Positions 22,089 through 38,580 of a stretch of 40,959 nucleotides of DNA are shown in pieces (the first letter of the stretch is position 1; each line of letters starts with the position of its first letter). Below the pieces are notes generated by a model. It saw only the letters and a list, made by a program, of their open reading frames with translations, searched no databases and was not told the origin of the DNA. The DNA is taken from assembly GCA_025922715.1 (NCBI GenBank), contig JAICHH010000003.1:1-40959 (forward strand), written 5' to 3'. A program made the position numbers and the translations under genes. This stretch comes from Nitrososphaeraceae archaeon. GTDB lineage: Archaea; Thermoproteota; Nitrososphaeria; Nitrososphaerales; Nitrososphaeraceae.

Positions 22089-22805
22089 TTGTTTGGTAAT
22101 AATTTGGATCAGTTCACATCGTCCTTTGTAGACATTTTTAAGTTTTATAAAAGGATATCGGAACAGTATACAGACCATATGATCTTGGATTCTGTCAAGC
22201 AATCAGTACCAGATAAGATATTAAAATTATGTCTCGATCACCAATCGTTAATCCCTCTCTTATATTGGTTCAAAAATGACTTGATGAAATGGATGCCAAA
22301 GGAAGTACAATGTTCGAGTTGTAATATGCAGATGAAAGTCCAAGTTATAGATGGTGATTCAACGATATTGCGCAAAACAGAAGTTCATTCATGTGGCAAA
22401 TGTGGATCCTCTATAATATTTCCTCGGTACGTTAAAATACAAAAAATTGCAGAAACAAAGATCGGCAGGTGTAGTGAATGGTCTATACTCTTTGGTGCTA
22501 TTCTAAATTCATTGTCACTACAGACTAGAATAGTGCACGATTTTCTTGATCATTGTTGGAATGAATCTTTGATAAATAATAAATGGATACACCTTGACTC
22601 AACTTTGAACTATCCTATTTCTTTTAACCACCCTTATTATTATGAACAAAATTGGGGAAAGGACTATGAGTATGTTTTAGCATTCTCTGCCAATAGCATC
22701 GAGGATGTTACTAGATGTTATACTGAAAAGTGGCACATGATTAAGAAAAGGAGGGAAAAGGAAGATAAAACAGACATATTGAAGAAACTTTATTCGAGAG
22801 TATAA
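22089..22805 (+). CDS. Peptide:N-glycanase (PNGase/NGLY1-like) transglutaminase-fold protein
   Basis: LLYWFKNDLMKWMPKEVQCSSCNM ... HSCGKCGSSIIFPRYVKI (split CxxC pairs) then catalytic-triad context GRCSEW...DHCWNE...WIHLDST, followed by YYEQNWGKDYEYVLAFSANSIEDVTRCYT; TTG start. Confidence 0.85.
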   Translation: MFGNNLDQFTSSFVDIFKFYKRISEQYTDHMILDSVKQSVPDKILKLCLDHQSLIPLLYWFKNDLMKWMPKEVQCSSCNMQMKVQVIDGDSTILRKTEVHSCGKCGSSIIFPRYVKIQKIAETKIGRCSEWSILFGAILNSLSLQTRIVHDFLDHCWNESLINNKWIHLDSTLNYPISFNHPYYYEQNWGKDYEYVLAFSANSIEDVTRCYTEKWHMIKKRREKEDKTDILKKLYSRV

Positions 22806-25754: not shown

Positions 25755-26969
25755 ATGATTTTAGCTCCACAGGAATTAGAAAATAGTGCAAGTAAATATG
25801 CCGCTGAAGCTATAAGGCTTGATTCACAAGGTTCAAGATTAAAGGCTATTCAATTTTATCAACGCGCTATTGAGGCTTTGAATAAATTAATACACATCTA
25901 TCCCGAATACAAATTAAATAAAATATACTTAGAAAGATCTAACGCATATTTAAACCGAATTAAATCGTTACAAATGTCAAATGTATTGGAAGACGAAGAA
26001 GTAAAGGGTGATGAAAATATAGTTGGGAATGATACTGACAATTATGATAGAAAAATAGGAAGTGAGATGAGGAAGCCAAGGGAATCACTTGGTGAAGAGT
26101 TTGATAGTTTAATTATGAAAGAAAAACCTAATATTTCTTGGGATGAAGTAATTGGTCTTGACGATGCTAAAAGAGCAATAAAGGAATCTATAGTTTATCC
26201 TACAAAGAGATCTGATTTATTCCCGTTGGGATGGCCAAGAGGAATACTGCTATATGGACCTCCAGGATGTGGAAAAACATTACTTGCAGCCGCCGCAGCT
26301 GCTGAAATTGATGGTTATTTTATAAATGTTGACGCAGCTGCAATGATGAGTAAATGGCTTGGTGAAGCTGAGAAAAATGTTTCAAAACTTTTTAAAATGG
26401 CTAATAAGTTATACGAAAGTGAAAATATTCCTATATTGCTTTTTATTGACGAAATAGATTCTTTAATAGGAAATAGGAATGGCGAAGTAGGAGGGGAAAT
26501 ACGTGTTAAAAACCAATTTTTAACTGAGATGGATGGAATAAACAATAAATCAAAGAAGTCAAAATTATATGTTATTGGCGCGACAAATAAACCCTGGAGC
26601 TTGGAAGCAGGATTTCTTAGAAGATTTCAGAAGAGAATTTACGTTACTTTACCTGACAACGATTCAAGAAACTATTTATTTAAACAATATACTATGCCTT
26701 TAAAAAAAGATAAAACATTCAAAATAGAAGAGTTATCTAAACTTGTTCAGGGGTACAGTGCTAGTGATATTAAAGACATTTGTCAAGCAGCACAATTAAG
26801 GGTTGTTAATGAATTATTTGAAAGTGGAAAGGCAATGGAAGCACAGTCTAATCCGCGTTCTATATCTATGAATGATTTTAAAGAAATTATAAAAATAAGA
26901 AAACCCAGTGTCAGCATAGACATGATTAGAGCTTATATGAGATGGAGTGAACAATTCAAAGCATTATAA
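25755..26969 (+). CDS. cdvC: CdvC/Vps4-like AAA ATPase with N-terminal MIT domain (ESCRT/Cdv cell division)
   Basis: MIT-like ASKYAAEAIRLDSQGSRLKAIQFYQRAIEALNKL; AAA motifs GILLYGPPGCGKTLLAAAAAAE, ILLFIDEIDSLIGNR, VIGATNKPWSLEAGFLRRFQKRIYVTLPD. Confidence 0.9.
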   Translation: MILAPQELENSASKYAAEAIRLDSQGSRLKAIQFYQRAIEALNKLIHIYPEYKLNKIYLERSNAYLNRIKSLQMSNVLEDEEVKGDENIVGNDTDNYDRKIGSEMRKPRESLGEEFDSLIMKEKPNISWDEVIGLDDAKRAIKESIVYPTKRSDLFPLGWPRGILLYGPPGCGKTLLAAAAAAEIDGYFINVDAAAMMSKWLGEAEKNVSKLFKMANKLYESENIPILLFIDEIDSLIGNRNGEVGGEIRVKNQFLTEMDGINNKSKKSKLYVIGATNKPWSLEAGFLRRFQKRIYVTLPDNDSRNYLFKQYTMPLKKDKTFKIEELSKLVQGYSASDIKDICQAAQLRVVNELFESGKAMEAQSNPRSISMNDFKEIIKIRKPSVSIDMIRAYMRWSEQFKAL

Positions 26970-35223: not shown

Positions 35224-36078
35224 CTATTTTATTTTTAATTCCAAGGAATATCCAATTAGATCTGTATTTACTGTTGCTGGTCCCATATAAGTATTGGTGA
35301 ATTGAGCTGATTGTAGTGAGTCCTGAATTATAGAGCTACAGGCATAAGAATCGATTCCAGATTCAAGACAAAATTTGAGTAATTCATTATTAAATTCTGT
35401 CAATGAATTACTAGAGATAATATCTTCATTATTATTTTTTTTATCTACTATCTTTGCAAAATATTTCATATTTTGATTTTTTACTTGATTAACAGTAACA
35501 GAAGATTCACTCGAATCTTGATTCTTTAAAATTGACATTATTTCACTATTAACAACATTTGACGTATTAGGCAGTGATGATTGATTGGGAGGAGAAGAGC
35601 TGGATGAAGAGGAACTAGGTGGAAGTAATGAATTTAGAGGAGAAGAGCTGGATGAAGAGGAACTGGGCGGAAGTAATGAATTTAGAGATGAGCTTGATAC
35701 AGAAGAGTTTGGTCCAGAAGAGTTTGCTGTAGGTGTAGAAGGTGGAGGAGAAGAGGAACTAGGTGGAAGTAATGAATTTAGAGGAGAAGAGCTGGATGAA
35801 GAGGAACTGGGCGGAAGTAATGAATTTAGAGGAGAAGAGCTGGATGAAGAAGAATTTGAGGAAGGAGATGAACCCATTCCTTGCATTAATGAATCAATAG
35901 TACTATCCATTATACTGCTTCTTCCTATTTTATTTAAAAGATTATTTATTTCTGTATCAATGTTTGTAGGATTAGAAACGTTATCTGATTGTGAATAAAC
36001 AAAGTTTAATAATTGATCACCGCTACTTATAGACACCATTAAGATTAAACCATACAATGCCAAAAATTTAAATTTCAT
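35224..36078 (-). CDS. Secreted Ser/Pro-rich repeat protein
   Basis: N-terminal signal-like segment MKFKFLALYGLILMVSISSG; repeated LNSLLPPSSSSSSSSP modules; C-terminal domain with two Cys. Confidence 0.7.
   Translation of the reverse strand: MKFKFLALYGLILMVSISSGDQLLNFVYSQSDNVSNPTNIDTEINNLLNKIGRSSIMDSTIDSLMQGMGSSPSSNSSSSSSSPLNSLLPPSSSSSSSSPLNSLLPPSSSSPPPSTPTANSSGPNSSVSSSSLNSLLPPSSSSSSSSPLNSLLPPSSSSSSSSPPNQSSLPNTSNVVNSEIMSILKNQDSSESSVTVNQVKNQNMKYFAKIVDKKNNNEDIISSNSLTEFNNELLKFCLESGIDSYACSSIIQDSLQSAQFTNTYMGPATVNTDLIGYSLELKIK
35590..35850. repeat. 48-bp tandem repeats (16-aa SLNSLLPPSSSSSSSP) arranged as a 144-bp higher-order repeat
   Basis: Variant A (actaggtgg) at 35614 and 35758; variant B (actgggcgg) at 35662 and 35806; A-to-B 48 bp, A-to-A and B-to-B exactly 144 bp. 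Confidence 0.9.
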
Positions 36079-36285: not shown

Positions 36286-38580
36286 TTAGTTAGATTCTTG
36301 TTTTATATTTTCTGAGGTTTGATTTAGTTGGGTAGTGTTTAAAAGTTTTGGAGTATCAATTAATTCTATTATACACGTTTTGTCTGTTCTTTCTATTACT
36401 CCTGTACATCCAGAAATTCTATTTATTTCATATCCAAATGTATTAGATATCTTAACATCATAATTTCCTGGCTTTATGGATACTTTTTGAAAGTTGTTGC
36501 TACCTGCAAAAGAACTTGGTTCAACGTTTTCTCCTTTCACTGTTATATTAAAATCTAATGGTTTTTTGCTTCCACCATGGACATTTATTACTTCTACTAG
36601 AACATTCAAGTGAAGGTCACGTAAAAGTAAGTTTACATTTGCATTGTTATTATTGTTACTGTCGTTAATGTTCTTATTTGTTGTAGCGATTGTAGTTGTA
36701 AGATTGTTACTTGTAAGATTGTTACTTGTAAGATTATAAGTATTGTTTAGTAATTCTTTAGAGGTTTTTGTGGGATCCATATCATCCAATGTTATCACAC
36801 ATTCTATGTTGTCACCTGAACCTATAATACCTTTACATCCAGCTGATAAAGTAGTTTTATATCCTGTGAAGTTATTTATTTTGACTTCATATGGTCCTGT
36901 TTGTAGAGATACAGACTGTCCATCGGGATTACCGGGGAATGAATTTGGAGTTGCCTGGCTACCATTAACTGATATAATAAAATCTTTTGTTTGTTTAGTT
37001 CCCCCATTATCATTGATGACCTGAGTTACTATATTTATGAGTGATGCAGAGGTAAGTGATTCTTTCTGAATTGGATTGGCAAATACATCAACTTCATTGA
37101 TACTGGCCCAATCATTTACACTATTACCAGTAACAGTAATTCTAAGATACTTACCAACAGTGTCTGGTATATCATATATTTCAATATCGTCAGTAGTATA
37201 ACTATTAGTGCTCGAAAAAACCTGTCTAAAATCATAACCATCTGAAGACACAGAGACTACGAAATCAATGTAACGGAAATCTCCTTTATACCAAGAAATT
37301 CCAATATCACATACCTGTTTTTCTTGTCCAAGATCAAATTGTAACCATGAACCCAATCCTAGATTTGACCATTTTGTGGAAAGATCATTGTCGACTGAAT
37401 TGCCCTCAGTATTATTAGGTGAATTATCTATTGATGAAATATGATCGACAGGGATATTTAATGGTAAACATGGAGAAGGAGATCCAGGAACTATGGGATT
37501 ATTAATATCAATCTCAGAGATACTGGACCAATCATTCATTGAATTGTCATTAACGGTTATTTTAAGAAAGCGAGCTTTTATATCCGGAATATCAAATTTT
37601 TCTGGTCCGGTGGTAAGTCCACTAGTAGTTTCAGAAAATAAATTGCTAAAAATTTCTCCATCTACAGATGTAGATATAGTGAAATTAACCTTCCTCTGAT
37701 CACCTTTATACCAAGATATATCAATATCACAGATCTCCTTTTCTTTACCTAAATCTACTTGAACCCAAGAATCGAGTCCATATTTAGACCATCGAGTGGA
37801 TTGATTACCATCAATTGCATTAAGTTCTGTATTATTGCCAGCATGTCCTATGGAGGTAACATTAACAGCCTTTTCAGGTTTACAAGATGTATTATCGCCG
37901 AAGGAAACAAATACTAATTGATTATCTAAATTGAATTTGTTTTGTGTATATGCATCGTATACCTCTGCTGTAGTAAGAGATCTATCCCAAATACGAATTT
38001 CATCTACATCGCCCACATATAACTTATCTTTGAAGAGAGAGTTTGCAGCAATGGCAATCCTATTTTTTCCTGTACTATCAGGCTTTGCATTCTTTGTATT
38101 TATACTATGGTCAAGCACACCATCGATAAACAACTTTAGTAATGATCCGTCATAAGTCACTGTAGCATAATGCCATTTATTGTCATTAACGGGTTTTTTA
38201 GAAGTAACAAAATAATTTGAGGAGTCTTTTGCTTCAAATCCCGCTTGAAGATGACCTAGGTAGGTTATCCAAAATCCATAGTTCATATTTTCACCGGAAG
38301 CTTCAGATCCAAATCCACCTTTATTAACTAAAAATGAAACATTGGGATCGGTATTATTTGTTTTAAACCAAACAGCAATTGAAAATTGATTTAATTGAAA
38401 TAATTCTGAATCTTTTACATATTTAAAATTATTACCAGTAAAGGTTCCAAATTTTCCAATTTGTGCTTCTACACTACTAATTTGAAAATGATTGGAAGAA
38501 ATAATGGTAAATGAAATTAGAAATGAAATTAAAATTAACATAATCACCTTATTTTCATAAATTTTATAATTTGTTGTCAT
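36286..38580 (-). CDS. Secreted multidomain surface protein: LamG/ConA-like, two F5/8 type C (discoidin) domains, two prealbumin/SpaA-like repeats
   Basis: FSIAVWFKTNN...DNKWHYATVTYDGSLLKLFIDG...VDEIRIWDRSLT (LamG); duplicated SWVQVDLGKEKEICDIDISWYKGD / SWLQFDLGQEKQVCDIGISWYKGD; duplicated C-terminal GPYEVKI.. / GNYDVKI.. modules. Confidence 0.82.
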   Translation of the reverse strand: MTTNYKIYENKVIMLILISFLISFTIISSNHFQISSVEAQIGKFGTFTGNNFKYVKDSELFQLNQFSIAVWFKTNNTDPNVSFLVNKGGFGSEASGENMNYGFWITYLGHLQAGFEAKDSSNYFVTSKKPVNDNKWHYATVTYDGSLLKLFIDGVLDHSINTKNAKPDSTGKNRIAIAANSLFKDKLYVGDVDEIRIWDRSLTTAEVYDAYTQNKFNLDNQLVFVSFGDNTSCKPEKAVNVTSIGHAGNNTELNAIDGNQSTRWSKYGLDSWVQVDLGKEKEICDIDISWYKGDQRKVNFTISTSVDGEIFSNLFSETTSGLTTGPEKFDIPDIKARFLKITVNDNSMNDWSSISEIDINNPIVPGSPSPCLPLNIPVDHISSIDNSPNNTEGNSVDNDLSTKWSNLGLGSWLQFDLGQEKQVCDIGISWYKGDFRYIDFVVSVSSDGYDFRQVFSSTNSYTTDDIEIYDIPDTVGKYLRITVTGNSVNDWASINEVDVFANPIQKESLTSASLINIVTQVINDNGGTKQTKDFIISVNGSQATPNSFPGNPDGQSVSLQTGPYEVKINNFTGYKTTLSAGCKGIIGSGDNIECVITLDDMDPTKTSKELLNNTYNLTSNNLTSNNLTTTIATTNKNINDSNNNNNANVNLLLRDLHLNVLVEVINVHGGSKKPLDFNITVKGENVEPSSFAGSNNFQKVSIKPGNYDVKISNTFGYEINRISGCTGVIERTDKTCIIELIDTPKLLNTTQLNQTSENIKQESN

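Follow-up and report, generated by a model that had tools for sequence, protein, structure and literature searches.

A reduced archaeal relative of the cytosolic peptide:N-glycanase NGLY1/Png1 in the Nitrososphaeraceae

Cytosolic peptide:N-glycanase (PNGase) strips sugar chains from faulty proteins before their destruction in our cells. The gene, NGLY1/Png1, has been described as conserved among eukaryotes (PMC12753239, PMC8997433), and a full-text literature search, whose reach stopped short of subscription journals, found no paper on an archaeal NGLY1/Png1. PNGase F, PNGase A and Ngly2 are alike in reaction type by name; PNGase F is a secreted protein of paired beta-sandwich subdomains with acidic catalytic residues (PMC9102325), and Ngly2 is similar to PNGase F (PMC12753239). 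The XPC/Rad4 proteins are described as an inactivated branch of the transglutaminase fold (Anantharaman 2001, as cited in PMC10318531).

The window analysed here is a stretch of 40,959 nucleotides from a Nitrososphaeraceae archaeon (contig JAICHH010000003.1 of assembly GCA_025922715.1). It contains an open reading frame of 238 amino acids, which an earlier note on this DNA had read as a eukaryote-like PNGase; this extent was borne out, and the TTG start is aligned with the ATG of both closest homologues (L002 and L003). The gene and its sites are given below. The PDB rows were numbered by the catalytic Cys, by which the published triads of yeast and mouse and the zinc cysteines of yeast (PMC2791212, PMC9102325, PMC12248763) were reproduced.

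22089..22805, + strand: PNGase (NGLY1/Png1-type) gene, stop included (PDB sequence search, profile, start aligned to homologues)
22266..22292, + strand: WFKNDLMKW helix, residues 60-68 (mapping onto human W236 and W244)
22311..22322, + strand: first CxxC of the putative zinc site, CSSC 75-78, with C75 and C78 equivalent to yeast C129 and C132 (residue mapping)
22392..22403, + strand: second CxxC of the putative zinc site, CGKC 102-105, with C102 and C105 equivalent to yeast C165 and C168 (residue mapping)
22470..22472, + strand: predicted catalytic Cys128 in GRCSEW, equivalent to yeast C191 and mouse C306 (residue mapping)
22551..22553, + strand: predicted catalytic His155 in DHCWNE, equivalent to yeast H218 and mouse H333 (residue mapping)
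22596..22598, + strand: predicted catalytic Asp170 in WIHLDST, equivalent to yeast D235 and mouse D350 (residue mapping)
22605..22607, + strand: Leu173 at the position of a eukaryotic Glu, yeast E238 and human E356 (residue mapping)
22650..22721, + strand: C-terminal PNGase signature NWGKDYEYVLAFSANSIEDVTRCY (aligned in the PDB and profile searches)

All the motifs named earlier, namely WFKNDLMKW, CSSC, CGKC, FPRY, GRCSEW, DHCWNE, WIHLDST and the C-terminal stretch NWGKDYEYVLAF...EDVTRCY, were found in the protein. It shares with the cytosolic PNGases of mouse (2f4m) and yeast (1x3w, 3esw) the Cys-His-Asp triad, the CxxC...CxxC arrangement, the WFK...W helix, the C-terminal signature and the predicted fold, where the identity over the aligned core residues is about 31% to the mouse enzyme and 36% to the yeast enzyme. 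The triad (C128/H155/D170) and the zinc cysteines (C75/C78/C102/C105) show no variation across the 25 archaeal rows. The missense sites of NGLY1 deficiency include human W236 and W244 (PMC9102325), which correspond to W60 and W68; these two are kept together with C283 (C102 of the window protein), E311, R328 and D386, and the positions of L318, Y342, C355, E356 and R390 are changed. The 238 residues leave no room for the PUB and PAW domains of PNGases, neither of which was detected by Pfam, and the yeast PNGase likewise lacks the mannose-binding C-terminal domain (PMC2791212). The N-terminus is a predicted helix with no obvious hydrophobic signal, as judged from the AlphaFold model and from the sequence by eye.

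The window protein differs from the cytosolic PNGases, however, in that its archaeal host has no ER and in that Leu replaces Glu three residues after the triad Asp (Asp+3). The earlier note had not remarked on this change. Of the 25 Nitrososphaerales rows, 23 have Leu at this position and 2 have Phe; yeast, mouse and the zinc-less archaeal relatives described below have Glu, which is a conserved and not a defining PNGase residue. The Glu of yeast E238 and human E356 presumably lies near the chitobiose site, and the change to Leu would, as a hypothesis only, fit a sugar with an N-acetyl group at C3.

In the phmmer search against the PDB, mouse PNGase (E = 1.1e-26) and yeast Png1 (E = 2.2e-25) were the only significant matches, and no sequence relation to PNGase F, PNGase A or Ngly2 was found. 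A profile of 19 homologues gave a PNGase match at E = 3.4e-43. The AlphaFold (AF2) model, with a pLDDT of 88, retrieved mouse PNGase (2f4o/2f4m) first in the fold search (E = 3e-15, TM 0.76-0.77) and yeast PNGase next, followed by XPC at 2e-5 and transglutaminase 2 at 0.01, so that the XPC/Rad4 match is about ten orders of magnitude weaker than the PNGase match. By Pfam, Transglut_core is the sole family above its cut-off (38.8 bits, cut-off 23), an assignment at the superfamily level; Rad4 scores 22.9 bits (E = 8e-5), under its cut-off of 27, and NCBIfam holds no fitting model. Membership in Rad4/XPC was rejected from this score and from the length of only 238 residues, compared with the DNA-binding beta-hairpin domains expected. 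The relationship to the Rad4/XPC transglutaminase-like domain is a distant one of fold, and that branch is inactivated, whereas the triad of the window protein is intact. The profile and structure searches thus place PNGase ahead of Rad4/XPC, and the PDB search, the fold search, the residue mapping and the tree agree with the claim of the earlier note that the protein is closer to PNGase than a generic transglutaminase would be. It is practically certain that the protein is an NGLY1/Png1 relative by homology and not a generic transglutaminase.

The archaeal origin of the host DNA, also claimed earlier, is supported by synteny in close relatives: both flanks of the gene are syntenic in one congener (L032), and its upstream neighbours also in a second (L031). 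The gene is under purifying selection, with dN/dS of about 0.2-0.35 against four homologues. Since it lies in syntenic archaeal DNA under such selection, it is not contamination; contamination and a chimera were ruled out by the syntenic neighbours and by the presence of homologues in single-contig genomes. No relatives were found in IMG/VR or among phages, and the plasmid search gave only weak partial matches to the transglutaminase core, by which a viral or plasmid origin was ruled out.

The neighbours of the gene are syntenic within the genus of the window and vary between genera, and a comparison of the neighbourhoods of homologues found no family-wide conserved operon, glycan-related ones included. 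In seven loci (L043, L044, L045, L046, L048, L050 and L053), mostly of Nitrosocosmicus, a gene for an M1-type aminopeptidase-like protein of about 920 aa, identified by eye, lies near the PNGase gene, in divergent orientation in most of them; its recurrence is weak, and it is a possible link to peptide turnover. Elsewhere in the window, positions 25755-26969 (+ strand) encode a CdvC/Vps4-like cell-division ATPase with an MIT domain, which scores 496 bits against the NCBIfam CdvC model, under the equivalog cut-off of 650.

A match to the gene, intact or decayed, occurs in 34 of the 70 genomes of the family of the window (Nitrosocosmicus and relatives), and extending the search to the order brought in a single genus from a sister family and one short match. 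The carriers include Candidatus Nitrosocosmicus, Candidatus Nitrosopolaris and other Nitrososphaeraceae assemblies. When family-specific peptide patterns were run over one genome per bacterial and archaeal species, only the Nitrososphaeraceae group matched, the patterns being narrow enough to miss the sister-family genus. In genus g7, which is probably Nitrososphaera, the gene is present in 2 of 18 genomes. Decayed copies with frameshifts and stops were found in three genomes (G014, G015 and G024), and split reading frames at L057:668-1590, L058:7860-8759 and L059:3757-4339 are decaying PNGase genes. Loss and decay of the gene are recurrent in the Nitrososphaeraceae, a feature absent from the earlier note.

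The genome homology searches covered the phylum of the window. In another class of this phylum they found PNGase-like proteins of about 165 aa without the zinc domain (L068-L074 and L079-L089). These share with the window protein the triad, DHxW and the signature YExxWxKxLxxVxAF...(D/N)VTxxYK (profile E = 1.9e-23), but they lack the zinc domain, retain Glu at Asp+3 and stand apart on the tree. Their own profile matches mouse PNGase at 3.7e-25, with a generic transglutaminase next at 0.001, and their predicted structure finds PNGase first with XPC not far behind. The zinc-less form occurs in a minority of its class, and STT3/AglB is present in most of the carriers tested; it is possibly a minimal PNGase. 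A clade near it (L090-L097) consists of transglutaminase-fold proteins, several with membrane-like segments, that carry a DVTxxY C-terminal feature.

In the tree, a branch with support of 100/100 separates the Nitrososphaerales rows and the eukaryotic PNGases from the archaeal relatives that are zinc-less or membrane-anchored; it was recovered at 100/99 after the zinc-domain columns were removed, and both alternative unions were rejected (p-AU 0.009 and 0.014). This grouping with eukaryotic PNGases comes from an unrooted tree of two eukaryotic rows and no Asgard rows, in which long branches meet at the join. Because of the long branches, the two eukaryotic rows and the lack of a root, the tree does not fix the direction of descent. 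An ancestor of these soil archaea may have taken the gene from a eukaryote, as its grouping with the eukaryotic rows and its patchy presence in about half of one family and one sister-family genus would suggest. However, the Nitrososphaerales rows form one clade (99/97) on a long stem apart from the eukaryotic pair, and PNGase-core proteins without the zinc domain exist in another archaeal class. We consider such a transfer a real possibility, at less than even odds against an ancestral archaeal gene.

As to function, we estimate from the sequence and the predicted model a probability of about 0.75 that the window protein is a cytosolic archaeal PNGase, which would remove N-glycans from glycoproteins or glycopeptides in a manner coupled to proteasomal turnover. 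By the chemistry of the eukaryotic PNGase, an unfolded glycoprotein or glycopeptide would be attacked by Cys128, activated by His155 and Asp170, at the side-chain amide of a glycosylated Asn, which would become Asp; the released glycosylamine would hydrolyse to free glycan and ammonia. The likely substrates would be mislocalised, misfolded or reclaimed N-glycoproteins made by the cell's own AglB, such as S-layer protein and multicopper oxidases. Once deglycosylated, the chain would be open to breakdown by the 20S proteasome and peptidases, with recovery of sugar and nitrogen. We infer a pathway of glycoprotein quality control or salvage, as did the earlier note.

STT3/AglB is present in 61 of the 70 genomes of the family, and AglB was not found in the window's own assembly, which is 78% complete; 20S proteasome genes are present in the same genome. 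A search of the genus for Alg14 (PF08660) gave no match and is uninformative, since Sulfolobus acidocaldarius, in which Agl24 is a known homologue, is likewise missed by the model. In Nitrososphaera viennensis, the S-layer protein and the multicopper oxidases carry an N-linked hexasaccharide (Nakagawa et al. 2025, PMC12153357). Its core was termed "chitobiose-like", with di-N-acetylhexosamine and then di-N-acetylhexuronic acid; the glycan has been proposed as a nitrogen store, and no N-glycans were found in Nitrosopumilus piranensis (PMC12153357). As the yeast PNGase structure 3esw contains GlcNAc2 as its ligand according to the structure title, a chitobiose-type core is, by analogy, a plausible substrate for the archaeal enzyme. 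Since the genus of Ns. viennensis (probably g7) mostly lacks the gene, the link between gene and substrate stands at the level of the family.

Two further products of the window are exported or secreted in appearance. Positions 36286-38580 (- strand) encode a 764-aa exported-looking protein with a laminin-G-like domain, two F5/8 type C domains and several N-x-S/T sequons, which is a candidate N-glycoprotein, and positions 35224-36078 (- strand) encode a secreted-looking protein with tandem Ser/Pro-rich repeats (NSLLPPSSSSSSS) and no Pfam match.

The protein could instead be a PNGase-fold cysteine enzyme acting on another amide substrate, as a peptidase, deamidase or transglutaminase. Such an activity would agree with Transglut_core being the only Pfam family above cut-off, with the Leu in place of the Glu conserved in yeast and mouse, and with the transglutaminase activity that plant PNG1 also has (PMC9102325), but the PNGase-specific C-terminal signature, the zinc domain, the aromatic residues and the six kept NGLY1-deficiency positions make it improbable. 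A non-catalytic glycoprotein-binding or scaffold protein is highly improbable given the invariant Cys, His and Asp, even if filamentous fungal PNGases persist despite the loss of their catalytic Cys and His (PMC9102325) and the gene has decayed in some relatives.

What is new is a reduced branch, found in archaea, of a family that has been described as eukaryotic; the kind of enzyme is already known. In a broader and rather doubtful scenario, cytosolic PNGase arose from zinc-less PNGase-like proteins in archaea with chitobiose-type N-glycans, as an enzyme of glycoprotein turnover and nitrogen recovery, and was passed to eukaryotes, where ERAD recruited it later; deglycosylation would thus predate the ER, and the Leu at Asp+3 would adapt the archaeal enzyme to diacetamido sugars. 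The occurrence of a relative in soil ammonia-oxidising archaea makes it possible to ask whether this clean-up step predates eukaryotes, and renders the origin of the ERAD step testable. If active, the protein would enable archaea to take N-glycoproteins apart in the cytosol, and at 238 aa it would be a small enzyme suited to structural and inhibitor studies of the NGLY1 active site. Because the reaction frees ammonia and a glycan that is very nitrogen-rich in this group, it could, speculatively, tie glycoprotein turnover to the nitrogen economy of ammonia oxidisers.
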